A stretch of DNA of 64,000 nt from positions 2,356,001-2,420,000 of the forward strand of contig NZ_CP157355.1 of NCBI RefSeq assembly GCF_040047665.1. Reading direction: 5' to 3'. Origin of the DNA: Chitinibacter sp. FCG-7 (GTDB lineage: Bacteria > Pseudomonadota > Gammaproteobacteria > Burkholderiales > Chitinibacteraceae). The translations under genes and the position numbers were made by a program. The first letter of the stretch is position 1. Each line of letters starts with the position of its first letter. Positions 2,268 to 61,243 of this stretch are shown here, one piece after another. Under the pieces are notes generated by a model that saw nothing but the letters and a program-made list of their open reading frames with translations, did no database searches and was not told the DNA's origin.

Positions 2268-4412
2268 ATGCGCTATGGCAGCTGGGTTGCCGCCGTGATG
2301 ATCGTAATGGCGGTATTGGGGCAGACGCAAGGCTTGTTGCCGGGGCTGGAGCGCTGGTCCTACGATGTGCGGGTACGCCTGTCGGCGACGGGGAACGTGC
2401 CCTTGCAGCAGGTGGCCACGATCCGTATTGACGACGCCAGCTTGCAGCAAATTGGCCGCTGGCCGTGGCCGCGTGAAACGCAGGCGCAATTGCTGGAGAT
2501 TTTGGTTCACGATTACGGGGTGAGGTTGATCGGACTTGATATTGTGCTGGCCGAGCCCGAGCAAAATCAGTTGCAGCGTGAATGGGCAGCGCTATGCCGT
2601 GATCTGGGCGGCGAGCAAGACTCGCGCTGCCAGCAATGGCAACAACGCCTGCAGCCATTGTTGCTGCCCGAGCAGCGCCTGATGCGCGCCTTGACGCAGC
2701 TGCCTGTGGTGGGTGGCATGTATTTTCTGCCTGAAGTGCGCCAGTCGGGCGCATTGCCGGAGGGGATCGCGCTTGAGTCCGGCTTGAATCTGTTTCCGGT
2801 GGCGCGTGGGTTTGGCGGCAACTGGCAGGGGCTGGCCAAGGCCTTGCCCGATGCAGGCTTTCTGAATACCCAGGTTGACGATGATGGTGTGGTCAGGCGC
2901 GTGCCGCTCCTGATCCGCTATCAGGAGCGCCTCTATCCCGCGCTGGCGGCGCGGATGGCGGCCCGCCTTGCCGATCCTGCTGCGCCGGTGATTGAGCCGC
3001 TGATGCTCAGTGACGACTCGGGCGCGCGCGTGCTCGATGGCGTCCGGCTTGGGCAGCGTGTTGTCCATCGCCTTGATACGGCTGGCCGTGTGCTGCTGCC
3101 CCAGTTTGGCCCGGCAGGAGCTGTGCCGGGCTTTTCCGCGGCGGATATTTTGCATCGCAGGGTGGACAAATCAGCCTTGCAGGGGAAGGCGGTTCTGATC
3201 GGGGCGACCGCTCCGGGCTTACAGGATATCCGGGCTACGCCAGTGAGCCCGATTTATCCCGGTCTGGAGGCGCAAGCCTCTTTGCTGATCGGCATTTTGT
3301 CGGGCCAGCTGGCATGGCAGCCGCCTTTGGCCACACTGCTGATGTTGCCACTGATGGTCATCATCGGCGGCTTGCTGGCCTGGCGTTTTGCCCGCGATGA
3401 TTTTTTGCGCTGCCATCTGTGGTTTGCACTCGCGATTGGCGCACTGATTGGGCAGGCCTATTGGGCCTGGCAGCAGTTTAGATGGGTATTGCCTGTAGTG
3501 TGGCCTCTGATCATGGTTGTGGCTCTATACCTGCGGATGGTATTGGCAAGCCGTTTTCTGGCTTTTCGCCAGCACCGTTTGCTCAAAGCGCGTTTTGGCG
3601 AATATATCCCGCCGCAAATTGTGGCCAAGCTCGATAGCGCCACCTTGCAGCAGGGTATGAGCCCGGAGGTCAGGTCGATGACGGTGCTGTTTGCCGATGT
3701 GTGCGATTTCACCGCGATTGCCGAACAGCTGAGCCCGGATGATCTGGCCGAATTGCTCAATCTGTATCTGAGCGCAATGACCGAGCAGATCCACGCCAAT
3801 CAGGGCGTGGTGGATAAATACATTGGCGACGCGATTATGGCGTTCTGGGGGGCGCCGGTGGCCGATGAGCTACAGCATGCACACGCGGTGCAGGCCAGTC
3901 TGGATATGCAATCGAGCCTGATCGAACTGAACCGCCAGTTTGCTGTGCGAGGCTGGCCCGAGCTGGCGATGGGCATTGCGCTGCATGCTGGGTCGATGCG
4001 CGTCGGCAATATGGGCTCGCGCTACCGCCGCGCCTATACCGTGATGGGCGATGCGGTGAATGTGGCGGCCAGAACCGAAAGCCTGACCCGTGTTTACCAG
4101 CAAGGCTTTCTGGTGACCGAGGCGTTAGTGCAGGCTTTACCGCAATACGCCTGGCTGGAGATTGACCGGGTCAGGGTGAAGGGGCGGCAGCAAGCCATTT
4201 CACTCTATACCTTGCCACCCGCAAGCGATCTGCGCTGGCTTGCAGCGTGGCAGCCATTGCGTGCGGCTTGTCTGCAGGGGGATGCGGTACTGGCGGCTGA
4301 GTATTTGGCGCAATGCCGTGCGCTCGGCTTGCCAGATGGTCTATATCACAGCTATCAGGCTCGCTTAGCCAACTGGCCAGCAGATGGGATCTGGAGCTGG
4401 CAGTCCAAATAG
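2268..4412 (+). CDS. CHASE2-domain adenylate/guanylate cyclase (class III)
   Basis: Membrane-bound class III nucleotide cyclase of about 714 residues. An N-terminal membrane anchor is followed by a large periplasmic CHASE2 sensor (about 30-340, with RWPWPRETQAQLLEIL and GLDIVLAEPEQ), three closely spaced transmembrane helices (about 345-430) and a cytoplasmic catalytic domain. Metal-binding aspartates are visible in TVLFADVCDFTAIAEQLSPD and in VDKYIGDAIMAFWGAP. Starts at TTG 2220 or ATG 2256 are possible; ATG 2268 has GGAG six bases upstream and leads straight into the anchor helix. A FecR-domain gene follows 16 bp downstream, a pairing often seen with CHASE2 cyclases. Part of the third helix (3484-3532) looks like a copy of the 49-nt repeat found elsewhere here. 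Confidence 0.92.
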   Translation: MRYGSWVAAVMIVMAVLGQTQGLLPGLERWSYDVRVRLSATGNVPLQQVATIRIDDASLQQIGRWPWPRETQAQLLEILVHDYGVRLIGLDIVLAEPEQNQLQREWAALCRDLGGEQDSRCQQWQQRLQPLLLPEQRLMRALTQLPVVGGMYFLPEVRQSGALPEGIALESGLNLFPVARGFGGNWQGLAKALPDAGFLNTQVDDDGVVRRVPLLIRYQERLYPALAARMAARLADPAAPVIEPLMLSDDSGARVLDGVRLGQRVVHRLDTAGRVLLPQFGPAGAVPGFSAADILHRRVDKSALQGKAVLIGATAPGLQDIRATPVSPIYPGLEAQASLLIGILSGQLAWQPPLATLLMLPLMVIIGGLLAWRFARDDFLRCHLWFALAIGALIGQAYWAWQQFRWVLPVVWPLIMVVALYLRMVLASRFLAFRQHRLLKARFGEYIPPQIVAKLDSATLQQGMSPEVRSMTVLFADVCDFTAIAEQLSPDDLAELLNLYLSAMTEQIHANQGVVDKYIGDAIMAFWGAPVADELQHAHAVQASLDMQSSLIELNRQFAVRGWPELAMGIALHAGSMRVGNMGSRYRRAYTVMGDAVNVAARTESLTRVYQQGFLVTEALVQALPQYAWLEIDRVRVKGRQQAISLYTLPPASDLRWLAAWQPLRAACLQGDAVLAAEYLAQCRALGLPDGLYHSYQARLANWPADGIWSWQSK
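3484..3532 (+). repeat. 49-nt element, degenerate copy M, inside cyclase coding region
   Basis: Exactly 49 nt from GGGTATTGCC to GGCTCTATACCT. Its last 19 positions match copy H (61195-61243) at 16 of 19. It encodes part of the third transmembrane helix of the cyclase. The middle is poorly conserved, so chance similarity is not excluded. Confidence 0.4.
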
Positions 4413-4428
4413 TTTTTGGGAGGTTTTC

Positions 4429-5058
4429 ATGGCATCCATTCGTCGTCGCACTTTCATGCTTTTGCTTGCTGCGTTTCCGCTGTCCCGTGTCTGGGCAATG
4501 AGCGGTTTTCTGTATCGCCCCGGCCTGCGAGCGATTCAGGGTAGTGTCAAAATCAACGGTAGCCCAGCCACTGAGGGTATGCCGGTCTCCTGGGGGGATA
4601 CGGTGGAAACCGGCGTGAAATCCAGCGCGGTGTTTGTATTGGGCCAAGACGCATTTTTGCTGCGTGAAAATAGCCGGGTACAGCTGGGGCTGGAAGCCGC
4701 AAGCCGCTTTATCCGCCTGCAAACCGGCAAATTGCTCTCGGTGTTTGGCCCCGGCGAAAAAACGCTGGAAACGCAGGCGGTGACGCTGGGAATCCGTGGT
4801 ACCGGCTGCTATCTAGAAGCCGAAGGCGCTGGCACCTATGTCTGTCTGTGTTATGGGCATGCCATCCTGACCCCGAAAGCCGCGCCAGAGCAGATGATCG
4901 AATACAAAACCATGCATCACGACAAGCCATACTGGGTGGAAGGCGCGCAAGTGCGTCCCGGTGGCGTGCGCAATCACACCGACGCCGAGCTGATCATGCT
5001 TGAAGCTTTGCTGGGGCGAAAACCGCCTTTTTCGTCGTCGGATCAATATCGCTACTGA
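4429..5058 (+). CDS. FecR-domain exported protein
   Basis: 209-residue protein with an Arg-rich N-terminus and hydrophobic signal sequence (MASIRRRTFMLLLAAFPLSR), followed by a FecR-like domain: GMPVSWGDTVETGVKSSAVF, ENSRVQLGLEAASRFIRLQT and LGIRGTGCYLEAEGAGTYVC. The start at ATG 4429 is set by a strong GGGAGG 5 bases upstream; the longer frame from 4384 lacks one. It lies 16 bp after the CHASE2 cyclase stop, so the two are almost surely co-transcribed. A periplasmic FecR-type protein could present a signal to the CHASE2 sensor; that is inference. Its stop overlaps the stop of the convergent LysE gene by 7 bp. Confidence 0.88.
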   Translation: MASIRRRTFMLLLAAFPLSRVWAMSGFLYRPGLRAIQGSVKINGSPATEGMPVSWGDTVETGVKSSAVFVLGQDAFLLRENSRVQLGLEAASRFIRLQTGKLLSVFGPGEKTLETQAVTLGIRGTGCYLEAEGAGTYVCLCYGHAILTPKAAPEQMIEYKTMHHDKPYWVEGAQVRPGGVRNHTDAELIMLEALLGRKPPFSSSDQYRY

Positions 5059-5663
5059 GTCAGCGCCAAGAGGCCGCCGACCAGAAAGAATGCCAGCGCG
5101 CAGCAACGGTTAAAGCGCCTGATTCGTCCCGGAGCTTGCAGCCACTGCGCCAGTTGATGGCCACCCCAGGCATAGGCCACTTGCCATACGCTTTCAATGC
5201 AGAAAAAAGACACGAGCAAAATCAGCCATTGCGGCCCTTGTGGCTGATTCAGGTCGATAAATTGCGGCAGAAAAGCCCCGGCAAACAGAATGGCTTTGGG
5301 GTTGGACAAGGCGACAGTGAAGCCGGTCTGGTAGCGCGCATACGCGGTATTGGCGCTTTTTTCCGGCATATTCATTGTTTCTCCGGCGCGCCAGCATTGC
5401 GCTCCCAGATAAATCAGGTAGACGCCACCGACCAGTTTCAAACCCTGAAAAAGGGTAGGTGAAGCCATTAAAATGGCGCCAACGCCCAGTGCAGACAGGC
5501 CGATCAGGATAGCCAGGCCACTGATCGCTCCGGCCATGGTGGCCAGCGTCGCCCGCCAGCCATAGCGGGCGCCATGGCTCAGCATCAGCAACATATTCGG
5601 GCCTGGCGTGGCTGAAATAAAAATGGTACTGGCAAGAAATATAATCCACAGATTGAGGTTCAT
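5052..5663 (-). CDS. LysE/RhtB family amino acid exporter
   Basis: 203-residue inner-membrane exporter of the LysE/RhtB superfamily with about six hydrophobic helices. The N-terminus carries the family signature ISATPGPNMLLMLSHGARYG, and the second helix region reads GAISGLAILIGLSALGVGAI. Family members export amino acids or homoserine lactones by proton antiport; the substrate here is unknown. It is transcribed alone and converges on the FecR gene with overlapping stops and no terminator hairpin between them. Confidence 0.9.
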   Translation of the reverse strand: MNLNLWIIFLASTIFISATPGPNMLLMLSHGARYGWRATLATMAGAISGLAILIGLSALGVGAILMASPTLFQGLKLVGGVYLIYLGAQCWRAGETMNMPEKSANTAYARYQTGFTVALSNPKAILFAGAFLPQFIDLNQPQGPQWLILLVSFFCIESVWQVAYAWGGHQLAQWLQAPGRIRRFNRCCALAFFLVGGLLALTQ

Positions 5664-5893
5664 GGTGTCCAGTGTGTTTTGAATAAGGATCGCCGACTCA
5701 TCGGCTGTGTACGTGTATTAAAGGGTAGTGATCTGCAATTTTGCTACCCAGTTTAAGCATTTTGTCAGCAAATAAAGCCTTGTTTTGCTACGCTTTACTA
5801 TGATTGCTTGCCTTCAGTGGGCTTTGTCATAAAAATAATGGGGTTTTACCCCGCTTCAAATTGCCGACTCTGCCTTTATAAGAGAAATATCCT
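5664..5893. other. Intergenic region between divergent LysE and GGDEF-EAL genes
   Basis: 230 bp, AT-richer than the flanks, holding the promoters of both divergent genes. No convincing -35/-10 pair or operator palindrome could be assigned by eye. Confidence 0.5.
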
Positions 5894-10737: not shown

Positions 10738-11456
10738 TGATGCTTGCTGAAGATACATTGGCAGGTATTGATCTACAGGCAATATCCATTCTGCCCTACA
10801 GCGATATACCCTTAGAGCCATTTGCGCATGTGCTGCGTGTGCGGCAGCTGGGCCAAGTTGATTACCAGCCCGTCTGGCAAGCCATGCAGCGTTTCACCGC
10901 CGAGCGCGATGCGCAGACGGTGGACGAACTCTGGCTGCTGGAGCACCCGCCGGTCTTTACGCAGGGGCAGGCGGGTAAAGCCGAGCATATTCTGGCCAGC
11001 AGCGATATTCCGGTGGTGCAGATTGATCGCGGCGGGCAGGTGACCTATCACGGCCCCGGCCAGCTAGTGGCTTACTTGCTGCTCGATTTGCGCCGCTACA
11101 AAATGGGCGTGCGCGATCTGGTGCGCAAGCTGGAAAACAGCGTCATCGGCATTCTGGCCGATCATGGCATTGCGGCGTATGGCAAAGTCGACGCGCCCGG
11201 CGTGTATGTCAGCGATGAATACGCCGAATCCAAGATCGCCAGTCTGGGCTTGCGGATTCGCAATGGCTGCTGTTATCACGGGCTGGCGCTGAATGTGAGC
11301 ATGGATCTAGCGCCGTTCGGCCTGATTAATCCTTGCGGTTATCAGGGTTTGCAGGTCACGCGCATGGCTGATTTTGGCCTTGACGAGACACCCGCGACAT
11401 TAGCCGCTAAAATGGCGGACAAAATTGCCCACCAAATCAAAACTTTAACCGTTTAG
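10737..11456 (+). CDS. lipB: Octanoyl-[ACP]:protein octanoyltransferase
   Basis: Transfers octanoyl groups from acyl carrier protein to lipoyl domains, the first step of lipoate synthesis. Core motifs are [58 protein letters not shown] and APGVYV with a conserved Lys in [19 protein letters not shown]. The first ~31 residues (to AHV) are not typical: LipB normally begins just before VRQLG. That extension coincides with a 49-nt repeat copy (10763-10811), so GTG 10830, after the repeat, is a real alternative start. The ATG at 10737 overlaps the ybeD stop, which favours translational coupling, but lacks a clear SD. Confidence 0.93.
10763..10811 (+). repeat. 49-nt element, copy K (in lipB 5' region)
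   Basis: 49 nt, AGGTATTGATCTACAGGC at the left end and CTACAGCGATATACCC at the right end. Ends and length match the family. It lies between ybeD and the conserved LipB core, encoding most of the unusual N-terminal extension if translation starts at 10737. Confidence 0.65.
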
Positions 11457-12506: not shown

Positions 12507-12567
12507 TTGGTATTGCCCACTAGCAAGCGAATAATATGCTTTTCAGAGCAATACATTGCGAGGGTAT

Positions 12568-16310: not shown

Positions 16311-16359
16311 GGGTATATGCCTGAAGGCTAGGAGCAGACTGCTCTGCGGGGCAATACCC
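16311..16359 (+). repeat. 49-nt element, copy A
   Basis: Exactly 49 nt, left end GGGTATATGCCTGAAGGC, right end CTGCGGGGCAATACCC. It lies 11 bp from the tRNA-Ser terminator in otherwise featureless DNA. Confidence 0.75.
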
Positions 16360-20254: not shown

Positions 20255-20303
20255 GGGTATTGCCTTGTAGCCCAGTATGCACTTGGCTTACGGCGCTATA
20301 CCC
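20255..20303 (+). repeat. 49-nt element, copy I
   Basis: Exactly 49 nt, left end GGGTATTGCCTTGTAGCC, right end TTACGGCGCTATACCC. It ends 3 bp from the infA stop codon and so forms part of the infA 3' untranslated region, before the terminator. Confidence 0.75.
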
Positions 20304-20762: not shown

Positions 20763-21983
20763 ATGCGTCGGATCTTGATATTAAGCGCGGCTTTGCTCCT
20801 TGCTGCCTGTGCCAGCCAGCCCGTAACAGCGCCGCTGGCCACGCCTAGCGTGAGCCCGGAGCCCACCGCAACAGCGCAGAGCATGCCTGCCCAAACTCCC
20901 CAGCCTACGCCTAGCGTGAGCCCAATACCCAGCACAGCGCCAACGGTGAGGCCGAGCGCGCGTCCGCAGATCAGCGAGGCGCAGGGGCGGGTACTGATGG
21001 GCAAGCTACTCCCCGCCAAAATGCCAGATCGCGAGGGCTGGATTGACGATATGCTCGACGCGTTTACCGCGCTCAAGCTGGCCTATACGCCGGAATATAT
21101 TTGCGCGCTGGCCGCCACCATTGAGCAGGAGTCGAGCTGGCAAGGCGATCCGGTGGTGCCGGGTTTGCCAAAAATTGTCTGGGGCGCGATTGAAGATCGG
21201 GCAGAAAAATATCATCTGCCGCTGCTTGCGGTGCAGACCGCGCTGCTGAAAACATCGCCCACTGGAAAAAGCTACAAAGCCCGCATTGACAGCTTGCGCA
21301 CCGAGCGTGAAATGAACGATCTATTTGAAGATTTGGCGGCCGAGGCCAAGAATCTGAACTTGCCGCTGAATATGAAAAACCCGATTCGTACTGGCGGGCC
21401 CATGCAGGTGAGCATCGAGTTTGCCCAGTCGCATGTCAAAGTGTGGCCTTATCCGTATGCGATGAAAGGCAGCGTGCGCAGCGAAGTATTTACTCGCCGG
21501 GGAGGGGTGTATTTTGGTACAGCCATTCTGCTGCAATATCCAGCGCCCTATACTGATATGGTGTATCGCTTTGCCGATTTTAATGCCGGGCGCTATGCCA
21601 GCCGCAACGCGGCCTTTCAGCAGGTGGTATCGCATCTGAGTGGCAAGGAGTTGGTTGAAGACGGTGATTTGTTACGCTACCAGAATGGCAATCCAAGCGG
21701 CACCAGCAGTGTGCAATCGGCTTTGTACGGGATGTCTACGCAGCTGGGCCTGAGTCGGGATGAAATTTTGCGCGATCTAAAGCTGGAAAAACTCAATGCG
21801 TTTGCCCAGTCGCCCCTGTATCAAAAAGTGTATGCGCTGGCCGAGCGCAACGGCAAAAGCTGGCCGCGCGCCAGCATGCCGCAGATTGATTTGAAGAGCC
21901 CGAAAATTACCCGCAAGCTCACCACCGAATGGTTTGCCAACCGGGTTAAATGGCGTTACGACACCTGCATGAAGCGGCTTTGA
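20763..21983 (+). CDS. DUF1615 lipoprotein
   Basis: 406-residue predicted lipoprotein: signal MRRILILSAALLLAAC with lipobox LAAC, then a Pro/Thr/Ser-rich linker containing two copies of a TPSVSP-type repeat (about residues 25-65), then a large domain of the DUF1615 type (ALAATIEQESSWQGDPVVPG, MKNPIRTGGPMQVSIEFAQS, FADFNAGRYASRNAAFQQ). The glutamate in IEQESSW and the NAGRYASRNA motif recall lysozyme-like/SLT folds, so a peptidoglycan function is possible but unproven. ATG 20763 chosen to place the lipobox correctly. Monocistronic. Confidence 0.86.
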   Translation: MRRILILSAALLLAACASQPVTAPLATPSVSPEPTATAQSMPAQTPQPTPSVSPIPSTAPTVRPSARPQISEAQGRVLMGKLLPAKMPDREGWIDDMLDAFTALKLAYTPEYICALAATIEQESSWQGDPVVPGLPKIVWGAIEDRAEKYHLPLLAVQTALLKTSPTGKSYKARIDSLRTEREMNDLFEDLAAEAKNLNLPLNMKNPIRTGGPMQVSIEFAQSHVKVWPYPYAMKGSVRSEVFTRRGGVYFGTAILLQYPAPYTDMVYRFADFNAGRYASRNAAFQQVVSHLSGKELVEDGDLLRYQNGNPSGTSSVQSALYGMSTQLGLSRDEILRDLKLEKLNAFAQSPLYQKVYALAERNGKSWPRASMPQIDLKSPKITRKLTTEWFANRVKWRYDTCMKRL

Positions 21984-22999: not shown

Positions 23000-23048
23000 G
23001 GGTATATTGCTGAAAGTATTTCCAGTATTAATTTAGAGGGGCATACCC
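23000..23048 (+). repeat. 49-nt element, copy B
   Basis: Exactly 49 nt, left end GGGTATATTGCTGAAAG, right end TTAGAGGGGCATACCC. Begins at the base after the LysR stop codon and ends just before the bidirectional terminator. Confidence 0.72.
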
Positions 23049-25873: not shown

Positions 25874-28774
25874 TTATTGCTTGGTTTCTACTTGGGCGAG
25901 TGTGGCTTGCGCACTGTCTTCATTTGAGACGCTCGCCTGTACGTCTTTGCGGCGACGGCGAGCAGGTGCTGCAACGGCAACTTCTTCCGCTGCGACAGCC
26001 GCTGCAGAGCGGGTTTCAACCAGTTGTAATGGCTCCGCAGTCACTGTCGTTTCAGTGGTGTTGCTTTGCACATCCTTGCGGCGACGGCGTTGTGGTAGCG
26101 CTGGCTCGGCTTCGGCAGCAGGGCTTGGCTCTGCGCGTGTCGCAACCTGAGTCAGGCCGACTTCGGCCGGGCTGGCTACAACAAACTCCGTAGCCGCAAC
26201 AGGTGCTACTTCCGCGACGGCAGCAACAATTGGTGCTGGCTCAGCACTGGCTGCTTCTGCAGCAGGTACTTCGCTGGCTATTTCTACCGTAACGTCTGCA
26301 GCTGCGCTGCTTGTAGTGTTTTCAGTTGCAGTTTGTACCGCCTCAGTAACAGGGGTAGAGGCTGCTTCGCTTGCGATGGTCGCCGATGCTGCCACGGGTG
26401 TTGCTTCTTCTACCTGTACTTTCACAAGCTCTACCGCTGGAGCGCTTGGCTCGCTTGCCGCTGGTGTCGCAACTGGTGCTGCTTCGGCTACTGCGGTGGC
26501 CTGTGCGGTTTCTGCCGCTTGTTGGGCCTGCTGCTGCAAGATCACCTCGTTAGGCACAAAGGCAGGTGCTGTAACTTCTTCGGTGTCTGCTGTCGTGCTG
26601 TTGTCAGCCGTATGAGTGCGATCATTGCGGTCGCGACGATCACGGCGGCTGCGACGACGGCGATTGCGTGTTTCACCATTTGCTTCTGTATTCGCGCTTG
26701 GCTCAGCGGTCGCTGCATCATTCAGCTCTAGTGCAGGTGTATTCAATGGCTCCTGCACTTGCTCTGCGCGCGCTTCCTGACGCTGGCGCTCTTCGCGCGG
26801 TTGACGCTCGCCACGAGGAGGGCGCTGTTGACGCTCTTCGCGTTTCTGGATGTCTTCCTCGATGCGTGGTTTGCCAGAACGGTTGTTGCGATCAGTACGT
26901 TCCGGACGTTCGGCTTTTTCGCCGCGTTCACTGCGCTCGCGTGGCGCTTGGCCTTCACGATTTTCGCGATTTTCATTACGATCAAAGCGGCCATTACGAC
27001 GCTCGTTGCGACCACGTGGTTGGCGTGGTGCAGGCTTGGCTTCTTCAACCGGTTTTGCAGCTTCCGGCTCGCTGCTAAACCACGCGACGATTTTTTTCCA
27101 CAACGAAGTTTGTGCTGGTGCCACTTTTACTTCCGGTTTGCTAACACGTTCGGTGCTGGCGGGAGCCGGTTGCGCTGGCGTAATGCCTTTCACCGCCGCT
27201 TCCTGACGCTTGGCTTGTTCTTCTTTGGCTTTGCCAGGCTTGTAACCTTCTTCGGCAGGTTGTTCCACCATGCGGTATGATGGCAGGGCATCTTCGTAAG
27301 ACAATACGTCTTCCGAGCGCACGCGAGTAATGCTGTAGTTTGGTGTTTCCAAATGCATATTTGGAATCAGCATCACGCCAACTTTCAGGCGAGCTTCAAC
27401 GGCGAACAATTCCGCGCGTTTTTCATTGAGCAAGAAGGTTGCAACATCCACTGGCACTTGAGCATGCAAGGCTCCGGTGTTTTCCTTCATCGCTTCTTCC
27501 TGAATGATACGCAGGATGTGCAAGGCCGATGATTCGATGCCGCGGATAAAGCCTGTGCCATGACAGCGTGGGCAGGCGATATGGCTGGTTTCTTCCAGTG
27601 ATGGTTGCAGGCGTTGGCGAGACAATTCCATCAAACCAAAACGGCTGATTTTGCCGGTTTGCACGCGAGCACGGTCGTGATGAAGCGCTTCACGCACGCG
27701 GTTTTCAACGTCGCGTTGGTTTTTCGGGTTTTCCATGTCGATAAAATCGATCACGATCAAACCACCAACGTCGCGCAAACGCATCTGGCGCGCGATTTCA
27801 TCGGCCGCTTCCAAGTTGGTGCGCAATGCCGTTTCTTCGATGTCGCCACCGCGTGTGGCTTTGGCCGAGTTCACGTCGATTGACCACAAGGCTTCGGTAC
27901 GATCCAACACGATGGCGCCGCCTGATGGCAGGCTCACTTCACGCGAGTAGGCGGTTTCGATCTGGTGTTCGATCTGGAAGCGCGAGAACAATGGCACGTC
28001 GTCTTGGTAGAACTTCACCTTATGCACATTGTTCGGCATCACGTGGCTCATGAACTGCTGAGCTTGCTCGTAGATATCGCGCTTATCGATCAACAATTCG
28101 CCAATATCAGGCTGGAAGTAATCACGAATTGCACGGATAACGAGACTGGATTCCTGATAAATCAGGAAGGCACCAGTCTGGGTATTGGCTGCACCTTCAA
28201 TCGCACGCCAGAGTTGCAGCAGATACCCCAGGTCCCACTGCAATTCTTCGGCGTTGCGGCCAATCGCTGCTGTGCGTGCGATCAGGCTCATGCCGTTTGG
28301 CGTTTCAAGTTGATCCATCGCGGCGCGCAATTCATTGCGCTCTTCGCCTTCGATGCGACGCGATACGCCGCCGCCACGTGGGTTATTTGGCATCAGCACG
28401 AGGTAACGCCCCGCCAAGCTGATGTAAGTGGTGAGTGCCGCGCCTTTATTGCCACGCTCGTCTTTTTCCACCTGAACAATCAGTTGCTGGCCTTCTTTCA
28501 GGCTATCAGCGATGCGACCACGGCCACCATCACCTTCGCTGAGGTAAGCACGGGCGATTTCTTTGAAGGGCAAAAAGCCGTGGCGATCGCAACCGTAATC
28601 GACAAAACACGCTTCGAGCGACGGCTCGATGCGGGTAATAATGCCTTTGTAAATATTGGATTTGCGTTGTTCTTTGCCGACAGTTTCGATGTCGAGGTCG
28701 ATCAGTTTCTGGCCGTCGACAATCGCAACGCGTAACTCTTCGGCTTGGGTTGCATTAAAAAGCATACGCTTCAT
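25874..28774 (-). CDS. rne: Ribonuclease E
   Basis: 966-residue endoribonuclease and RNA degradosome scaffold. The N-terminal catalytic half has the S1 domain ([20 protein letters not shown]), the 5' sensor/RNase H-like region, the catalytic aspartates in [20 protein letters not shown] and [11 protein letters not shown], and the zinc-link CPRCHGTG. From about 530 it is low-complexity: Arg/Glu-rich blocks ([17 protein letters not shown]), a long Ala/Val/Pro/Glu region, and two copies of RRRRKDVQ near the C-terminus. The start at 28774 gives the family [16 protein letters not shown] and has GGAG upstream. Divergent from rluC across a long leader. Confidence 0.96.
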
Positions 28775-29078: not shown

Positions 29079-29125
29079 GGGTATCGTTACTCCGGTGATC
29101 TGTATGCTCTGTCGGGCGAACACCC
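29079..29125 (+). repeat. 49-nt element, degenerate copy L (47 nt)
   Basis: Starts GGGTATCGTTACTCC and contains TCTGTATGCTCTGTCGGGCG, nearly the same as the right half of copy D with a base lost; ends AACACCC. Confidence 0.5.
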
Positions 29126-32453: not shown

Positions 32454-32502
32454 GGGTATGTGGCTGTAGGCTAATTTGGTATTGGCTCGTGGCGATATAC
32501 CC
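32454..32502 (+). repeat. 49-nt element, copy C
   Basis: Exactly 49 nt, left end GGGTATGTGGCTGTAGGC, right end TCGTGGCGATATACCC. It fills the gap between the sppA stop (8 bp away) and the motD-like start (16 bp away). Confidence 0.78.
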
Positions 32503-41030: not shown

Positions 41031-41931
41031 TGATTCATATATTCTGGTCGTCGATGACCAGATGGCCAATATCGAAGCGCTGGGCGAATTATTGGCCGAT
41101 CAATACGATGTGCATTTTGCCCTCAGCGGGCAGGCGGCTTTGGCGCAGGTGGCCAAGTCCAAGCCCGATCTGATCCTGCTCGACATTATGATGCCGGATA
41201 TGGACGGTTACGCGGTCTGCCGGCAACTGCAAAGCCAGCTTGAAACCGCCGATATTCCGGTTATGTTTATCACTGCGCTGGCCACGCCGGACGAGGAAAC
41301 GCGCGGGCTGGACGCCGGGGCGGTTGATTACATTGTCAAACCGTTCAATCCGACCATTGTGCGCGCTAGGGTGCGCAACCATCTGGCCTTCAAGCACGCC
41401 AAAGATCAATTGCGCTTATTGGCACAAACCGATGGGCTCACTGGTCTGGCCAATCGGCGCTATTTGTTCGAGCGCTTGCAGGCCGAGCTGGAACGGGTGC
41501 GGGAGCAGGCGGCGCAGCCTTTTTCGCTGATCCTGATCGACGTCGATCATTTCAAGCATTACAACGACAGCCAAGGGCACGTGGCCGGGGACTTGTGTTT
41601 GCAGCGCGTGGCCGGCGTGCTCAAGGCCGAATTGCGCAATCCCGACGATATGATGGCCCGCTATGGCGGCGAGGAATTTTGCTGCCTGCTGCCGCATACC
41701 GGCTTGGCCGATGCCGAGCAGATCGCCCTGCGCATTTGCCGCCGGATCAATGAGCTGGCGATTCCGAATGCCGATGTCGAGCACGACGCGCAACGCGTGG
41801 TGACGGTGAGCGCGGGGGTGGCCTTGTGCACGGCAGCAATGGCCAGTGTCGAAACCTTGCTGCAGCAGGCTGATCGGGCGCTTTACACGGCCAAAGCCGC
41901 CGGGCGCAATCAGGTTAAGGTATGGGTATAG
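41023..41931 (+). CDS. Response regulator diguanylate cyclase (REC-GGDEF)
   Basis: 302-residue cytoplasmic response regulator. Receiver domain with acidic pocket (VVDDQMAN), phospho-acceptor Asp54 (LILLDIMMPDMDG) and Lys in YIVKPFNP; then a diguanylate cyclase domain with GGEEF at 215-219 (MARYGGEEFCCLLP), so activity is expected. An RxxD product-inhibition site at the usual spacing is not evident (RNPDDMMARY is one residue off). Its start overlaps the TPR-kinase end by 8 bp, so it is the likely output of the phosphorelay. The final VWV-stop codons lie in element copy D. Confidence 0.94.
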   Translation: MNSDSYILVVDDQMANIEALGELLADQYDVHFALSGQAALAQVAKSKPDLILLDIMMPDMDGYAVCRQLQSQLETADIPVMFITALATPDEETRGLDAGAVDYIVKPFNPTIVRARVRNHLAFKHAKDQLRLLAQTDGLTGLANRRYLFERLQAELERVREQAAQPFSLILIDVDHFKHYNDSQGHVAGDLCLQRVAGVLKAELRNPDDMMARYGGEEFCCLLPHTGLADAEQIALRICRRINELAIPNADVEHDAQRVVTVSAGVALCTAAMASVETLLQQADRALYTAKAAGRNQVKVWV

Positions 41932-41972
41932 TCATGCAGGCTTTATCTGTATTGCTCTGTAGGGCTATACCC
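41924..41972 (+). repeat. 49-nt element, copy D
   Basis: Exactly 49 nt, left end GGGTATAGTCATGCAGGC, right end CTGTAGGGCTATACCC (outer stem GGGTATAG / CTATACCC, 8 bp perfect). It supplies the TAG stop codon of the diguanylate cyclase and ends 7 bp from the RND permease stop on the other strand. Confidence 0.8.
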
Positions 41973-46227: not shown

Positions 46228-47520
46228 TCAATCATGCAGCAGCCCCTGCCTGAGACTTTGGCGATAACGCAGGATGATCCAGCTCATCACCAAAATCACT
46301 AGTCCGCCAAAGCCGATAATGATTAGATACATCGGCGGCATGCCGTTGTGCGCAAATTGCTGTTGCAACAAGGCGCTGCTGTCGGCGGCCAGCGGGCTGC
46401 TCCAGTTTTTGACCAGCCAAGCATGCAGGCCAACCATGACCAGAATGCCCAGATTTTCATTAAAATTCTGGACCGCAATCGAGTGCCCCGCGCCCATCAG
46501 CGCATGCCCGCGATGTTGCAGCATGGCATTGAGCGGCACGACAAAAAATCCCGACAGCGCACCAATAATCAACATCAATAACGCAGCCAGCCAGATCTGG
46601 TTGACCCAGAGCATTGAAATTAGCAAAGCCCCCATGGCCACACCGGCCCACAGCACGCTGAACGCTTTGTGTAGCGGGATCCAGCGGCCGGCGGCGATGG
46701 CGCCAAAAGCAATGCCGACGGCGACCAGCGCAATCAGCTGGCTGGCTTGTTCGAGTTTGAGAGACAGCCAGATGACCGCCCAGTTCAATACCACCAGCCT
46801 CATCGTCGCGCCCGCGCCCCAGAACAGCGTGGTGACGCCCAGTGAGAGCTGGCCTTGCGGGTCACGCCACAGGCGCTTGACGCACCAGGCGAATTCTTTG
46901 GCCTGATGCACCGGATCAAGATGCAGGGGCTTGAGGCGTACGGCCAACTTGGGGATGTAGAGATTGATATACGCGGCCAGACAATACAGCAGCACCGTAG
47001 CGCAGATCGCAAATTCGGCCGGGCTCAGATACTTACCCAGTGTATTGCCTGTTAGCCAATTTTGAATGTGGCTTCCAGATAAATACCCCCCAATCACTGT
47101 GCCAAGGATAATCGCGGCGACGGTGGCACCTTCCAGCCAGCCATTGGCGGCTACCAGTTTTTCATGCGGCAGATATTCGGTAATGATGCCGTATTTGGCC
47201 GGAGAGTAAGCGGCCGCGCCAAAGCCGACAATGGCGTAGGCAAAAATTGGCGGCATGCCGACGATCATGCTGGCGCAGCCCAGTAGCTTGATGCCATTGC
47301 AGATCAGCATGGCCCGGCCTTTGTGCATGGAATCGGCAAAAGCGCCGGCATAAGGCGCAATCACGACATAGGAAACAGTGAACGCCCAGAGCAGCATGGA
47401 TAAATGCCATTCCGGTGCTTTTTGCTCTTTTAACAAGGCCAGCGCGGCGAAAAACAGCGCGTTGTCGGCCAGCGCGGAGAAAAATTGCGCGCCCAGAATG
47501 GTAAAAAATCCACGGTTCAT
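46228..47520 (-). CDS. lplT: Lysophospholipid transporter LplT (MFS)
   Basis: 430-residue MFS-type flippase with about 12 helices that moves lysophospholipids across the inner membrane for re-acylation. Family features: FFTILGAQFFSALADNALFF at the N-terminus, FADSMHKGRAMLICNGIKLL and AAYSPAKYGIITEYLPHEKL. The partner acyltransferase/acyl-ACP synthetase (Aas) is not adjacent. ATG 47520 gives the conserved N-terminus; the longer frame adds 20 unrelated residues. The segment around SGSHIQNWLTGNTLGKYLSP resembles a degenerate 49-nt element on the DNA level (47040-47088). Confidence 0.92.
   Translation of the reverse strand: MNRGFFTILGAQFFSALADNALFFAALALLKEQKAPEWHLSMLLWAFTVSYVVIAPYAGAFADSMHKGRAMLICNGIKLLGCASMIVGMPPIFAYAIVGFGAAAYSPAKYGIITEYLPHEKLVAANGWLEGATVAAIILGTVIGGYLSGSHIQNWLTGNTLGKYLSPAEFAICATVLLYCLAAYINLYIPKLAVRLKPLHLDPVHQAKEFAWCVKRLWRDPQGQLSLGVTTLFWGAGATMRLVVLNWAVIWLSLKLEQASQLIALVAVGIAFGAIAAGRWIPLHKAFSVLWAGVAMGALLISMLWVNQIWLAALLMLIIGALSGFFVVPLNAMLQHRGHALMGAGHSIAVQNFNENLGILVMVGLHAWLVKNWSSPLAADSSALLQQQFAHNGMPPMYLIIIGFGGLVILVMSWIILRYRQSLRQGLLHD
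47040..47088 (+). repeat. Possible degenerate 49-nt element (copy N) inside lplT
   Basis: 49 nt beginning GTGTATTGCCTGTTAGCC and ending CCAGATAAATACCC. Length and ends fit, and the left part resembles copy I; the right part is weak. May be chance. Confidence 0.3.
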
Positions 47521-51729: not shown

Positions 51730-51778
51730 GGGTATATTCCTGCAGGCTATACCAGTAGATGGATGTGGATTAATACTT
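51730..51778 (+). repeat. 49-nt element, copy E (right end degenerate)
   Basis: Left end GGGTATATTCCTGCAGGC matches the family well, and TGTGG falls at the same offset as TGTAG in copy D. The right end is TTAATACTT instead of GCTATACCC. Confidence 0.55.
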
Positions 51779-51806: not shown

Positions 51807-51869
51807 CACCTCACACCTCACACCTCACACCTCACACCTCACACCTCACACCTCACACCTCACACCTCA
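51807..51869 (+). repeat. Tandem repeat, nine copies of CACCTCA
   Basis: 63 bp made of nine perfect 7-bp units CACCTCA without a single mismatch, ending 26 bp before the ATG of the ubiH-family gene. Perfect short repeats of this kind are prone to slipped-strand length change. Confidence 0.98.
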
Positions 51870-51895
51870 TTCCGTCGCAATGTTAAACTGTCGCC

Positions 51896-53846: not shown

Positions 53847-53876
53847 CAAAAAGCCACCGAATTCGGTGGCTTTTTC
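53847..53876. terminator. Terminator after dsbC
   Basis: Perfect stem AAAAAGCCACCGA / CGGTGGCTTTTT region with ATT loop and A/T runs on both sides. Confidence 0.9.
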
Positions 53877-53929
53877 ATTGGCTTCATTTAGGTTTGCTGA
53901 TGGCGAGCGACAAATATGTAGTCTTCTAT

Positions 53930-53978
53930 GGGTATTACTCGCTATATATTATTTCAATTGACTTGTAGAGCTATACCC
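53930..53978 (+). repeat. 49-nt element, copy F
   Basis: Exactly 49 nt, left end GGGTATTACTCGCTATAT, right end CTTGTAGAGCTATACCC. Its last base abuts the stop codon of the outer-membrane protein gene on the other strand. Confidence 0.78.
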
Positions 53979-54536
53979 CTAGAAGCCAATTTTTAGCTGT
54001 GCGGCCACAAAGCCTTCCACATCGACGGCTTGAATCGTCGGCACGATAAATAGATTCAAGCCCAAGTGGTAATCGGTTTCCAGCGAGACCAGAAAACCAC
54101 CAGCCGGCACAATCGGATAGCCTTTATCGGTGTTTTGATAGCCACTCACCAAGCCTGCCGCTGCGCCGAGCGACAGGCTGGCTTTATCGCTAAATTGCCA
54201 TTGCAGCGGCGTCCAGCCCAGCTGTGCGTAGATCGACGGATCGCGCAGCGAGTTGCGATAGGCGCCTAGCATCCAGTGCCAGCGGCCATTACTGCGCTCA
54301 ATGCCGATACCCGGATTGCTCTCGCTCAGATTGTCGTCAATCACCGCCTGGCGATCAAAGTGCCGCGTCATTACGGGGGCCACCGCCCACGTTTTCCACG
54401 CTTGATCGGTATTCATGCCCTGCAGCCAAGCGGGCGTTGCCTCGCCAAAGGCCTGATGATCAGCAGCCTGCACACCATTGCTAGTTATACCCAGAGCTAG
54501 TATCGCTTTACAGACTAATTTGAGAATTTTCTTCAT
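53979..54536 (-). CDS. Small outer-membrane beta-barrel protein (hypothetical)
   Basis: 185-residue exported protein. Signal peptide MKKILKLVCKAILALGITSN ending GVQA, then alternating amphipathic strands: NPGIGIERSNGRWHWMLGAY, SIYAQLGWTPLQWQFSDKAS, LGAAAGLVSGYQ, and a C-terminal strand ending in Phe (FVAAQLKIGF), as expected for an outer-membrane barrel. Size and strand layout recall PagP-like eight-stranded barrels, but no catalytic residues could be matched. Its start codon and first 13 codons lie in element copy J, and its stop abuts copy F, so the gene fits precisely between two repeats. Confidence 0.78.
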   Translation of the reverse strand: MKKILKLVCKAILALGITSNGVQAADHQAFGEATPAWLQGMNTDQAWKTWAVAPVMTRHFDRQAVIDDNLSESNPGIGIERSNGRWHWMLGAYRNSLRDPSIYAQLGWTPLQWQFSDKASLSLGAAAGLVSGYQNTDKGYPIVPAGGFLVSLETDYHLGLNLFIVPTIQAVDVEGFVAAQLKIGF

Positions 54537-54546
54537 GGCTATACCC
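54498..54546 (-). repeat. 49-nt element, copy J (contains OMP start codon)
   Basis: Exactly 49 nt. On the - strand it begins GGGTATAGCCATGAAGAA and ends CTGTAAAGCGATACTA. The ATG within it is the start codon of the outer-membrane protein gene. The other end lies 2 bp from the fosX stop. Confidence 0.65.
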
Positions 54547-54548
54547 TA

Positions 54549-54972: not shown

Positions 54973-55021
54973 TAGTATGTTTTTCAAGTCATTGTAGGCA
55001 TTGACCTTGCTGGTTATACCC
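54973..55021 (-). repeat. 49-nt element, copy G
   Basis: Exactly 49 nt. On the - strand it begins GGGTATAACCAGCAAGG and ends TTGAAAAACATACTA, sharing the variant ATACTA end with copy J. It directly abuts the uvrB stop codon. Confidence 0.6.
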
Positions 55022-57550: not shown

Positions 57551-57832
57551 GAGCTTCTACCTAACTATTAATCAGGTCTCACTAGTTGAGGCCTAACTCA
57601 AGCGGTGATGGCCTAGCTGTTGATTTTTATGAGTTATATGTTGGGTAAGCGATAACCGAAAGGTAGTTTACCGTAGTCACCTAAGTCGCATTACTCTCAG
57701 GCAGATTTGTGCAATACACAAATAGTCCGTTTCTGGCCGACTGCGGCCTCTGACTTAGTTTAATCCACTCCCTGTTTCCAAGCAGCATTGGCCTTTGGAT
57801 TGGGGGGTAAATCGAGCAATATTTTGTGGCTA
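57551..57832. other. AT-rich intergenic region with an attC-like stretch
   Basis: 282 bp without genes. GCCTAAC (starting near 57591) and GTTGGGT (about 45 bp further on) match the attC core patterns RYYYAAC and GTTRRRY, separated by a partly self-complementary stretch. TTGAGGCCTAACTCAA is itself a short palindrome. Integron origin is unproven. Confidence 0.35.
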
Positions 57833-58525: not shown

Positions 58526-58543
58526 GGCAGAGTATCGCTTGGT

Positions 58544-58562
58544 TAGTGTCTGAGAGACATTT
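58544..58562 (-). promoter_or_regulatory. Likely NrtR operator 1 (autoregulation)
   Basis: TAGTGTC-TGAGA-GACATTT, an imperfect version of the operator at 58670. It overlaps the -10 of the nrtR promoter and lies 19 bp upstream of the nrtR start. Confidence 0.7.
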
Positions 58563-58587
58563 TAGCGAACAAAGTCATAAAGACCAA
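58559..58587 (-). promoter_or_regulatory. Candidate nrtR promoter
   Basis: On the - strand TTGGTC (58587-58582), 17-bp spacer, TAAAAT (58564-58559). The -10 runs into operator 1. Confidence 0.5.
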
Positions 58588-58663
58588 TGCGCTTGTGCTG
58601 GGGCTCTGATGTTGTCTGCTCAGTGATTTTCAACACAGTAAAAAAGTGGCACTGAAAAAACGT

Positions 58664-58692
58664 TTGACATAGTGTCTCTGCGACACTAATAT
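58664..58692 (+). promoter_or_regulatory. prs-nadV promoter
   Basis: Near-perfect sigma70 promoter: TTGACA (58664-58669), 17-bp spacer, TAATAT (58687-58692). The spacer consists almost entirely of the operator palindrome. Confidence 0.88.
58670..58688 (+). promoter_or_regulatory. Likely NrtR operator 2 in prs-nadV promoter spacer
   Basis: Perfect inverted repeat TAGTGTC-TCTGC-GACACTA lying between the -35 and -10 hexamers. Repressor bound here would exclude RNA polymerase. The same half-site TAGTGTC occurs in operator 1. Confidence 0.85.
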
Positions 58693-58802
58693 CAACTCAT
58701 CGCAAGAGAGTACGCAATTACAAGGTGATGTCAGATTTTGAAGTGAATGCTGGCGTTTGTTTGTGAATATGCTTACGATCTGCGGTGGATAAGGAGACGG
58801 TG

Positions 58803-59675
58803 ATGAGCTGCAATAATGTGCAATCTAGCTATGATTTACCCGCGCAAGGCGCGGCGGCGCAAGCCTTAAAGCTGTTTCAATTTGGTAGCGGCGAGCAGCA
58901 TGTGCAGGTGTTAAAACAGAGCGCAGCGCGTGTGCAAATTCGCTATCGCTACACCGGCGATGCATCGATCATGCAGTTGCTATTGCTGACCGATGCACTC
59001 AAACGCCAAGGTGCGAGCGAGATTGATTTGCTGATTCCGTACTTTCCCGGTGCGCGGCAAGACCGAGTGTGCAATGACGGCGAGGCTTTGTCGGTGAAGG
59101 TGTATGCCGATTTGATTAACCAGCAGCGTTATCGCCAAGTCACTTTGTTTGACCCGCACAGCGATGTGGTCGTCGCCTTGCTCGATCGGGCGCAAGTGGT
59201 CAAAAACTACGCATTGATTGAACGAGTACTCAGCCAGCTGGGTAATGATGTATTGCTGGTCTCTCCCGACGCGGGTGCGAATAAAAAGGTGTTTGCGCTG
59301 GCGACGCACTTGGGTGGTTTACCGGTGATTCGCGCCGACAAAATTCGTGATGTGCGCAACGGTGCGATTGTCGATACCGAGGTGTTTTGTGGTGATTTAT
59401 CCGGCAAAACCGCGCTGATCGTCGACGATATTTGCGCCGGTGGCCGCACCTTTATCGAGCTGGCGAAAAAGCTGAAGCAGAAAAACTGCGCGCGCATCGT
59501 GCTGGCGGTATCGCATTTTGAAGGGACGGCGAATTTGCAGCTATTGGCAAACAGCGGCATCGACGCGGTGTACACCACCAACAGCATTAATAATTTAAGC
59601 AGTGATGACTTTTTAACCATTCAGGATATTTGGTCGCTAATGCCAACTAATCCATGCGAAGGAGAGCAACAATGA
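58803..59675 (+). CDS. prs: Ribose-phosphate pyrophosphokinase (NAD-salvage type)
   Basis: 290-residue PRPP synthetase, shorter and more diverged than the housekeeping enzyme (about 315). The PRPP-binding loop is ALIVDDICAGGRTFIELAKK; other motifs are LLIPYFPGARQDRVCNDGEA and DPHSDVVVALLDRAQVV. It makes PRPP from ribose 5-phosphate and ATP, the co-substrate of NadV encoded next. ATG 58803 follows AAGGAG; an in-frame ATG at 58785 lacks a matching SD. Overlaps nadV by 4 bp (ATGA), so the two are coupled and presumably NrtR-controlled. Confidence 0.93.
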   Translation: MSCNNVQSSYDLPAQGAAAQALKLFQFGSGEQHVQVLKQSAARVQIRYRYTGDASIMQLLLLTDALKRQGASEIDLLIPYFPGARQDRVCNDGEALSVKVYADLINQQRYRQVTLFDPHSDVVVALLDRAQVVKNYALIERVLSQLGNDVLLVSPDAGANKKVFALATHLGGLPVIRADKIRDVRNGAIVDTEVFCGDLSGKTALIVDDICAGGRTFIELAKKLKQKNCARIVLAVSHFEGTANLQLLANSGIDAVYTTNSINNLSSDDFLTIQDIWSLMPTNPCEGEQQ

Positions 59676-61141
59676 GACTCAACCCAGTTACCGCGATTGA
59701 TGGCTATAAAGTCGATCACCGCCGTCAGTATCCGGACAATACCGAAATCATTTTTAGTAACCTCACCGCGCGCACCACGCGCCGCGATTACACCGATGAA
59801 ATGGTGTTTTTCGGCCTGCAGCACTTTGTAAAAGATTTTCTGATCGAGAGCTGGAATAAAGATTTTTTCCAACAACCGAAAGACGAAGTGATTCGCCGTT
59901 TTGCGCGCCGGATTAATAATTATCTGGGCCCGAACAATGTCGGCACGCAGCACATTGCCGATCTGCACGACTTGGGCTACTTGCCGATCAAAATTATGGC
60001 GCTGCCCGAAGGCACGGTTTACCCAGTGCGCTTGCCGTGCTTGGTGATTTACAACACCGACGAGCGTTTTTTCTGGCTGACTAATTATCTGGAAACGATT
60101 TTATCGACCAACATCTGGGGTATGTGCACCAGTGCCACAACTGCACACGAGTACAAGAAGATACTCACCCAATATGCTTTGGAAACCGATGGCAGCACCG
60201 AGTTTGTGAATTGGCAAGGCCACGATTTTAGCTTCCGTGGCATGTTTGGCGCCGAAGCGGCGATGATGAGCGGCGCAGCCCACTTGCTCAGCTTTACCGG
60301 TACCGACACGATTCCGGCGATTGATTTTCTGGAAGACTACTACGGCGCCAATAGCGATCTGGAGCTGGTCGGCGGCAGCGTGGCGGCGACCGAACACTCG
60401 GTGATGTGTGCGGGTGGCATGGATAATGAGCTGGAAACTTTCCGCCGCCTGATCGAAGACATTTACCCGGAAGGGATTGTTAGCATCGTGTCCGATTCAT
60501 GGGATTTCTGGCAGGTGATGACCGACTTTACCGTGCGCCTGAAAGACAAAATCTTGGCGCGCAACGGCAAAGTGGTGTTCCGTCCTGATTCGGGCGATCC
60601 GGTGAAAGTGATTTGCGGCGATGCCGATGCGCCCGTTGGCAGCCCCGAATACAAAGGTGCGGTGGAATGCTTGTGGGATGTGTTTGGTGGTACAACGACG
60701 AGTCAGGGTTACAAATTGCTCGACGCACATGTTGGCGTGATTTATGGTGATTCGATCACGTTTGAGCGGGCGCGCGCAATTTGCGCTGGCTTAAAAGCCA
60801 AAGGCTTTGCGTCGACCAATATCGTGTTTGGCATCGGCAGCTATACCTATCAGTATGTAACGCGTGACACCGACGGTTTTGCCGTGAAAGCCACCTTTGC
60901 CAAAGTAGCAGGGCAAGATCGCGAGATTTTCAAAGCACCGAAAACCGGCGACGGCACTAAAAACTCGGCCAAAGGCTTGGTGGCCGTGTACAAAAACGCA
61001 GAGGGTAAGCTGTATCTGAAAGATCAAGCCACTTGGGATGAAGTGAATCAGTGTGAATTTATCCCGGTGTTTGAAAATGGCCGCTTGCTCAATGAAACCA
61101 CGCTGGCTCAAGTGCGTGCCCGACTGGCGGCGACACTGTAA
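59672..61141 (+). CDS. nadV: Nicotinamide phosphoribosyltransferase
   Basis: 489-residue NAMPT/NadV enzyme converting nicotinamide and PRPP to nicotinamide mononucleotide, a direct route to NAD salvage. Length and motifs match NAMPT (human 491): ATEHSVMCAGG with the phospho-accepting His, KVVFRPDSGDPVKVICG with the Arg and Asp that bind substrate, and SDSWDFWQVMTDF. SD GGAGAG precedes ATG 59672. Last gene of the nrtR-regulated prs-nadV operon. Confidence 0.96.
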   Translation: MRLNPVTAIDGYKVDHRRQYPDNTEIIFSNLTARTTRRDYTDEMVFFGLQHFVKDFLIESWNKDFFQQPKDEVIRRFARRINNYLGPNNVGTQHIADLHDLGYLPIKIMALPEGTVYPVRLPCLVIYNTDERFFWLTNYLETILSTNIWGMCTSATTAHEYKKILTQYALETDGSTEFVNWQGHDFSFRGMFGAEAAMMSGAAHLLSFTGTDTIPAIDFLEDYYGANSDLELVGGSVAATEHSVMCAGGMDNELETFRRLIEDIYPEGIVSIVSDSWDFWQVMTDFTVRLKDKILARNGKVVFRPDSGDPVKVICGDADAPVGSPEYKGAVECLWDVFGGTTTSQGYKLLDAHVGVIYGDSITFERARAICAGLKAKGFASTNIVFGIGSYTYQYVTRDTDGFAVKATFAKVAGQDREIFKAPKTGDGTKNSAKGLVAVYKNAEGKLYLKDQATWDEVNQCEFIPVFENGRLLNETTLAQVRARLAATL

Positions 61142-61164
61142 ATTGATCCATGCATGGACAATGC

Positions 61165-61190
61165 AAAAGCCCTGCAGCTGCAGGGCTTTT
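61165..61190 (+). terminator. Terminator of prs-nadV operon
   Basis: Perfect 26-bp palindrome AAAAGCCCTGCAG / CTGCAGGGCTTTT, ending in a T run. Confidence 0.88.
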
Positions 61191-61194
61191 TATT

Positions 61195-61243
61195 GGGTAT
61201 AGCCTTATAAGCAATATCCTGATTGGGTTGTGGCAATATACCT
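61195..61243 (+). repeat. 49-nt element, copy H
   Basis: Exactly 49 nt, left end GGGTATAGCCTTATAAGC, right end TTGTGGCAATATACCT. Lies between the nadV terminator and the acs terminator. Confidence 0.75.

Follow-up and report, generated by a model that had tools for sequence, protein, structure and literature searches.

A 49-bp dyad of near-fixed spacing in Chitinibacter and related genera: candidate recognition sites of a two-fold-symmetric protein

The chromosomal sites of MatP, Noc and SlmA are dispersed palindromes of about 12–14 bp with a regional bias, each recognized by a sequence-specific protein. Repetitive extragenic palindromic (REP) elements and their BIME (bacterial interspersed mosaic element) clusters, which occur with REP-associated tyrosine transposases (RAYT), are dispersed palindromes near gene ends, and the Neisseria repeat dRS3 (ATTCCC-N8-GGGAAT) joins short conserved inverted ends to a variable core of fixed length. 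Here we analyze a family of dispersed palindromic elements found in a 64,000-nucleotide (nt) stretch of the Chitinibacter sp. FCG-7 chromosome (NZ_CP157355.1, positions 2,356,001 to 2,420,000; the window), each of which is a 49-nt dyad of the form GGGTAT-N37-ATACCC. Like the MatP, Noc and SlmA sites, the copies are dispersed palindromes that may be read by a sequence-specific protein, but those other sites are short and a MatP gene occurs in 0 of 43 genomes of the Chitinibacter family. The dyad differs from REP/BIME elements in that RAYT does not track it, a hairpin is not needed and the interior drifts freely. It shares the layout of dRS3 and differs from it in sequence and spacing; a dRS3-like pair was seen in a genus that lacks the dyad.

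The nearest published class that we found is that of spaced motif pairs, in which two conserved words stand at a fixed distance around a variable spacer, in 9 to 125 copies and with function unknown, many of them close to the 3′ ends of genes or in gaps where two genes converge (Tong, Schliekelman and Mrazek 2017, PMC5217627). One example is GAATCCAT-N23-ATGGATTC, with 52 copies in Bradyrhizobium (PMC5217627). As far as the main-text examples of that study extend, the pairs have other words and spacers and come from other bacteria, those listed were selected as mostly intergenic, and the sections at hand contain no cross-species, synonymous-site or spacing-evenness test. Relative to these examples, the Chitinibacter mark is distinguished by an estimated ~960 sites, a 37-nt spacer and the location of one third of its copies within genes. 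DNA uptake sequences (DUS) of Neisseriaceae and Pasteurellaceae, as portrayed in the portions of two papers available to us, are likewise lineage-specific, numerous and found both in genes and at gene ends, with some inverted pairs at terminators; they are single short non-palindromic words, whereas the Chitinibacter unit is a dyad of fixed spacing (PMC3630211, PMC1939737). No paper on the 49-bp Chitinibacter element was among the literature matches listed.

We read the copies as double-stranded DNA recognition sites of a two-fold-symmetric protein with an architectural role, and we place the probability of this reading at roughly 0.55. From sequence comparison, the copies appear better explained as binding sites on DNA than as REP elements, miniature inverted-repeat transposable elements (MITEs) or structured RNA, the roles that a preliminary description of the window had left open. 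A dyad site at the level of DNA is suggested by the absence of excess folding in gene-internal copies, the retention of a copy in lon through synonymous codons, the stability of positions between species and the lack of co-evolution between the two arms.

A near-constant length and a narrow range

The 3.58-Mb genome to which the window belongs contains 291 exact copies of GGGTAT-N37-ATACCC and 0 copies of the reversed pattern used as a control. Exact copies number 3 at 48 nt, 291 at 49 nt and 13 at 50 nt. When lengths of 40–60 nt were scanned in 740 kb of this genome (the window plus sampled stretches, 20.6% of the total), 71 exact copies were found at 49 nt, 3 at 50 nt and none at any other length, and exact end pairs averaged 0.11 per length over lengths of 14–2999 nt. 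These counts bear out the preliminary description, which had stressed a constant length despite interior drift; the result that it had named as refuting, no genome-wide excess of 49-nt matches over shuffled sequence, is clearly contradicted. Twenty of the 71 copies lie within genes and 51 outside, and all three 50-nt copies are within genes. The 50-nt form is a minor one, present in 12–14 copies in each of six Chitinibacter species. Complete lists for the window's genome and for genome G005 show that 6 of 13 exact 50-nt sites of the former are also exact in the latter, with an interior identity of 0.76–0.89; 12 such bases are kept by chance in 13.4% of coding windows (binomial p 0.004).

A position profile identified 198 sites in the 740 kb, which extrapolates to the ~960 sites per genome given above. 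In the analysis of spacing evenness, the same profile set to other distances between the half-sites returned 12 matches at +1, 15–39 at −2, +2, −6 and +6, and 0–4 elsewhere. We take the matches at −2, +2, −6 and +6 as echoes of the 49-nt sites and those at +1 as the 50-nt form. The tolerance in spacing is small, +1 bp. Single half-sites outside dyads are rare (8 in 740 kb, compared with ~2.5 expected from nine control words). Within the window itself, 13 places match the 49-nt pattern with no more than one mismatch in the 12 end positions; 100 dinucleotide shuffles of the window gave a mean of 0.02 such matches, and none reached 13. A profile built from 120 copies, all outside the window, scores at least 12 at 16 places in the window at the true spacing and at 0–4 places at each of 30 other spacings.

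The dyad has a narrow range. Among 61 genomes, all 13 from genera g1, g10 and g11 hold 100–291 exact copies, and the other 48 hold 0–3; a set of 368 genomes besides the window's own, which shares G050 with the first set, holds 0–2 exact copies per genome. The strict palindromic form had a sole match in a collection of named genomes, Chitinibacter sp. GC72, although the window's own record may be excluded there. Genus g1 is Chitinibacter, because an 8-kb locus of GC72 matches the region around position 471139 of the window's genome with 92.7% identity over 8019 columns. In a tree of Lon proteins without genus g8, a poorly supported branch (62/76; found in 59% of bootstrap trees) separates the 13 carriers from the rest; a single origin of the carriers is allowed by these sequences, with weak support. 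The mark is present in a few genera and not in sister genera, which makes gain and loss directly comparable. The same architecture built from other words was not found in 100 kb from each of four non-carrier genera. The dRS3-like pair mentioned above is ATTCC-N10-GGAAT, which occurs five times in 100 kb of G007 (loci L118–L122; non-carrier genus g3; corrected p 2.6e-6) and which we take to resemble the Neisseria repeat. A separate repeated word, TTCGTGCTTTTCGTG, is found in G024 of genus g11 (loci L098–L107) about 14 times per 200 kb, counting 12-mers of both strands, together with ACGAAA dyads at a distance of 59.

Conserved ends and drifting interiors

Sequence information is concentrated at positions 1–6 (RGGTAT), 12 (T), 13 (not T), 15 (A or G), 16 (G) and 20 (A or T), and is mirrored on the right half; the flanks of intergenic copies contain almost none. 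Each half-site can be written RGGTAT-N5-T-N2-A-N4-W. Copies inside genes, which make up about one third of the total (48 of 133), have identical contact positions with weaker signals. We compared 14 intergenic copies, limited to those with no more than one mismatch and fewer than three deleted bases, with their counterparts in G001, the genome of a close relative. The ends were changed at 5 of 166 positions and the interiors at 80 of 512, against a background in which 7.0% of other intergenic DNA and 3087 of 13,548 four-fold degenerate sites (22.8%) were changed. Because interiors diverge more than flanks, we considered that they might be hypermutated or subject to gene conversion; this was rejected since divergence is higher again at four-fold sites (0.228, versus 0.156 for interiors). 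Orthologous sites retain an interior identity of 0.52, compared with 0.36 for unrelated sites. The site at position 2421993 of the genome (L057:1993) has a counterpart in contig 45 of G001 in which ~100 nt, like a separate repeat, are inserted within the 49 nt.

Comparison with G005 started from sites with no more than one mismatch, 21 intergenic and 8 gene-internal. Sixteen of the 21 intergenic sites correspond to a 49-nt site with up to two mismatches in the same place. Because the stretches of G005 had been selected from sites already known to be shared, this count is biased toward conservation; when the three sites that guided the choice (A420 12858, A420 39865 and A940 65565) are removed, 13 of 18 are kept. 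Three of the five gene-internal sites with one mismatch had identical ends in G005. Five sites lacked a G005 counterpart, and inspection by eye revealed no clean empty site among them, although the alignment is poor for most and one is a copy of altered length.

Of the genes that contain an exact site, ten were identified with NCBIfam models: cobT, nadD, ligA, rmlB, rmlD, rne, lon, cobQ, coaX (type III pantothenate kinase) and mnmC. All have matches at E≤1e-20, although some fall short of the curated threshold of their top model. The lon site encodes the protein segment AGI(G/A)IATALTSVLTGIP, which, with small variants, aligns without gaps across 31 genomes (30 of the 43 family genomes as loci, plus G014). 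GGTAT-N37-ATACC is kept in all 12 g1 and g11 genomes (six each; a seventh g11 match, G062, was incomplete and excluded) versus 0 of 18 non-carriers. That the site is common to the window's genome and G005 was known beforehand, whereas its state in g11 and in the non-carriers was not. The isoleucine codon within ATACC is ATA, which makes up 3% of isoleucine codons in genes of the window's genome. Retention of the mark by synonymous codons in a gap-free segment reflects selection on DNA rather than on protein or RNA structure.

These observations bear on the possibility that the copies are decaying selfish short repeats of the REP or MITE type. Their dispersal as palindromes, some of them near perfect (14 of 16 interior pairs), and their preference for gene ends, which REPs share, speak for such an origin. 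The Y1 transposase, however, does not track the copies: PF01797, the domain of RAYT-type transposases for which the preliminary description had proposed a check, is absent (E≤1e-3) from 5 of the 13 carriers (G004, G005, G014, G015 and G031, which hold 100–272 exact copies), and it is present in some non-carrier genomes. Nor do the copies behave as MITEs. Identical flanks of 4–10 nt, as expected from target duplication, surround 0–1 of 85 intergenic copies, as in shuffles; there is a weak excess of identical 2-nt flanks (12 versus 7.3 in shuffles), and mean flank matches lie slightly above shuffled values (1.88/1.64 over 6 nt and 3.19/2.68 over 10 nt). The flanks have no signal, no other end distance up to 3000 bp is preferred, as would befit a transposon, positions are stable between species and synonymous codons maintain the lon copy in a stretch of protein that aligns without gaps. 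Gene-internal copies, moreover, have no hairpin excess. A selfish origin is largely refuted by these data and we regard it as very unlikely.

Placement, folding and the proposed role

Distances to genes were measured for 56 intergenic copies in 520 kb (of 57; one at a stretch edge was omitted). For 33 of them a gene 3′ end is no more than 30 nt away, compared with 12.6% of random intergenic places, and for 12 a 5′ end is equally close (14.2% of random places). Copies occupy 30 of 66 convergent gaps, 44 of 283 tandem gaps and 6 of 78 divergent gaps. This distribution would suit a role of the intergenic copies as transcription terminators or stabilizers of RNA 3′ ends, with the gene-internal ones as a side issue. 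Also in favor of such a role, signals resembling intrinsic terminators are scarcer where genes converge on a copy than where they converge without one (11/45 versus 40/87; Fisher p 0.023 before correction for two tests), one site that lacks a G005 counterpart is replaced there by a terminator-like hairpin, as judged by eye, and intergenic copies fold better than interior shuffles (hairpin energy z −2.48). Intergenic copies also pair across the dyad in excess (714 pairs versus 627 for shuffled partners, z 5.0). The third of copies that lie in genes, however, have no such excess in pairing (222 pairs versus 237, z −1.2) or folding (z −0.27). No T run was found in the flanks of 85 intergenic copies, both sides pooled, in agreement with the earlier view that these are not ordinary terminators; tandem gene ends show no clear deficit of terminator-like signals (5/37 with a copy versus 53/246, p 0.38); and hairpins at 3′ ends leave the fixed length unaccounted for.

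Pairing is also not maintained jointly by the two arms. In 22 orthologous pairs of sites with no more than two mismatches, real arms form 6.59 pairs and chimeric arms 6.52 (p 0.76), so the compensatory changes suggested as a test of the family did not emerge. The strong exception is the site at position 471139 and its ortholog at 337140 of G005, both near-perfect palindromes with 14 of 16 pairs; seven pairs have changed on both sides and the arm sequences are almost wholly different. The lack of co-maintenance suggests that the palindrome mainly marks two equal half-sites. The preliminary view that each copy could fold into a hairpin does not extend to the family, most of whose copies are poor hairpins, and a subset may double as hairpins. 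Structured RNA as a conserved trait was rejected on three grounds: an Rfam search of the window at gathering thresholds returned seven tRNAs and nothing else, gene-internal copies have no folding excess and pairing is not co-maintained. Terminators or 3′-end stabilizers are, in our judgment, an unlikely explanation of the copies.

The interiors have a stranded look. The asymmetry between G·T and A·C follows local GC skew, not gene direction, and stays within composition: counts are 91/33 at positive and 15/38 at negative skew in the window's genome, 26/9 and 4/14 in g10, and 14/50 in g11, where all skew is negative. A strand signal in RNA was rejected for these reasons.

The sites are more evenly spaced than chance in two of four genomes. 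Across 380 contiguous kb of the window's genome, 98 gaps between sites have a mean of 3.7 kb and a coefficient of variation (CV) of 0.66, compared with 0.97 for uniform placement and 0.92 for placement in real intergenic slots; 0 of 1000 simulations were as low under either null. Restriction to sites with no more than one mismatch gave a CV of 0.61 versus 0.95, and the g10 genome gave 0.59 (P 0.004). Nineteen sampled 20-kb stretches, which are samples rather than a full list of positions, each contain 1–5 copies, with no void. From the regular spacing and the scarcity of sites in promoter gaps we infer, rather than observe, an architectural or boundary role. Both features are at odds with the idea that the copies are operators of a single very large regulon. 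Transcription factors typically bind two-fold symmetric sites at contacts spaced by about one helical turn; set against this are the scarcity of copies in divergent gaps relative to convergent ones, the even spacing and the presence of copies in housekeeping genes. Of the alternatives considered here, a regulon of this kind is the least probable.

Chitinibacter belongs to the same order as Neisseriaceae, and other Neisseriales have DNA uptake sequences. The copies might accordingly be a DUS-like self-recognition mark for DNA uptake or recombination, spread by biased conversion. Precedents in the published portions considered include DUS located within genes and others that form inverted pairs close to terminators (PMC3630211), as well as a claim of even spacing and the location of 35–65% of uptake sequences in reading frames (PMC1939737). 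The k-mer lists of carriers show, by eye, no outstanding short DUS-like word, which also counts in favor of this reading; a classic uptake word was rejected because none was seen among the top k-mers. The unit in Chitinibacter, however, is a 49-bp dyad whose half-sites almost never stand alone, whereas uptake sequences are, according to the portion of the source at hand, non-palindromic, present as inverted repeats in ~10% of cases and mostly without bias to positions downstream of genes (PMC1939737). We consider an uptake mark rather unlikely, a little more so than a role at RNA 3′ ends.

The architectural reading would work as follows. One protein dimer or tetramer would touch both inverted half-sites, which is the proposed reason that they are held at one distance. 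It would contact GGTAT and the next groove ~10 bases inward on both sides; the fixed distance would be the ruler of the protein complex, and the remaining interior would be nearly free to drift. About 960 sites, one per 3.7 kb, would be laid out along the chromosome; most would fall just 3′ of genes, where sequence is permissive, and others in housekeeping genes, and a lineage-specific nucleoid or looping protein could use them as regular anchoring points that leave promoters unblocked. We propose only tentatively, as a possibility that is more doubtful than the reading itself, that this amounts to a new chromosome-organizing system in which a lineage-specific protein grips pairs of half-sites, with 43 bp between their centers, at ~1000 even places.

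Several observations weigh against an architectural protein. Evenness of spacing is not significant in G001 (CV 0.71, P 0.06) or g11 (CV 0.84, P 0.13), and the sole g10 carrier examined lacks an intact site in lon. The preference for gene 3′ ends is not needed by a purely architectural role, nor are the intergenic pairing excess and the few near-perfect palindromes. Interiors diverge more than other intergenic DNA (0.156 versus 0.070), for which lack of constraint is the sole explanation offered. All three exact gene-internal sites are exact in G005, but these sites had guided the choice of stretches and provide no test. Finally, the search for a binder covered four families (Y1/RAYT, MatP, Mu-type and Rep3), none of which fits; the Mu-transposase C domain and the Rep3 domain were each rejected because they do not track the carriers. 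The genes near site clusters and divergent sites, viewed by eye with names unchecked, include no obvious regulator.

If there is such a chromosome-organizing system, its protein would bind strongly enough to force codon choice within a housekeeping gene, and the sites would form a bacterial analog of a genome-wide code of anchor points or boundaries. A dense, even mark that holds a rare codon in lon would imply a global DNA-binding activity not matched to a named one, and the sites themselves could serve as bait for the candidate protein.

The copies in the window

Copies are lettered here as in the preliminary description; none is assigned a strand, and genes were called with a custom codon-usage script, so gene starts may be off. 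Six copies have exact ends, as originally described. Copy A (16311..16359) lies 50 nt from a pair of tRNA-Ser genes. Copy I (20255..20303) has identical ends and six interior changes at the same place in G001. Copy B (23000..23048) is immediately 3′ of a stop codon between convergent genes, copy C (32454..32502) follows a stop codon by 8 nt, and copy D (41924..41972) occupies a convergent gap. Each of the five other Chitinibacter genomes has, as the counterpart of copy D, a 49-nt site with 0–1 mismatches and a different interior. Copy F (53930..53978) adjoins the stop codon of the next gene; its G001 counterpart carries nine changes, all within positions 8–24 and none further right, and no counterpart was found when it was looked for in G005.

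Copies K (10763..10811; profile score 41.4) and H (61195..61243) each have one end mismatch, as had been reported; K is at the start of a called open reading frame (ORF) whose start is uncertain, and H lies between convergent genes. Copies J (54498..54546; score 32.5) and G (54973..55021; score 21.2, adjoining a stop codon) are 49 nt long with variant ends, two mismatches each, again as described. Four further copies had been called degenerate, which holds in part. Copy E (51730..51778; score 23.5), 3′ of a tRNA cluster, has two end mismatches. Copy M (3484..3532; score 11.4), inside a gene, is borderline with one, and copy N (47040..47088), inside a called ORF, also has one and is represented by 49 nt with 0–2 mismatches in all five other Chitinibacter genomes. 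The fourth, L at 29079, is no copy, since it scores −19.4 against the profile and its right end falls at 47 nt.

Two sites had been overlooked. One is a dyad at 12508..12556 (score 20.8), flanked on both sides by co-directional genes. The other, at 28180..28228, has exact ends inside the RNase E gene rne and a low whole-profile score of 10.7; it is found in G001 and, by sequence, among the exact G005 matches, and is missing from G004. Weak profile matches inside genes at 21507, 30973 and 60118 may be due to chance.

Two other repeats lie close to copies. At 51808–51870 the 7-nt unit CACCTCA (TGTGAGG when read on the opposite strand) is repeated in tandem; the unit is among the commonest 12-mers both in the sample of the window's genome and in non-carrier genus g3, and the array is matched elsewhere in the genome. 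Upstream of copy F, positions 53848–53877 form a palindrome resembling a bidirectional intrinsic terminator, AAAAAGCCACCG...CGGTGGCTTTTT.

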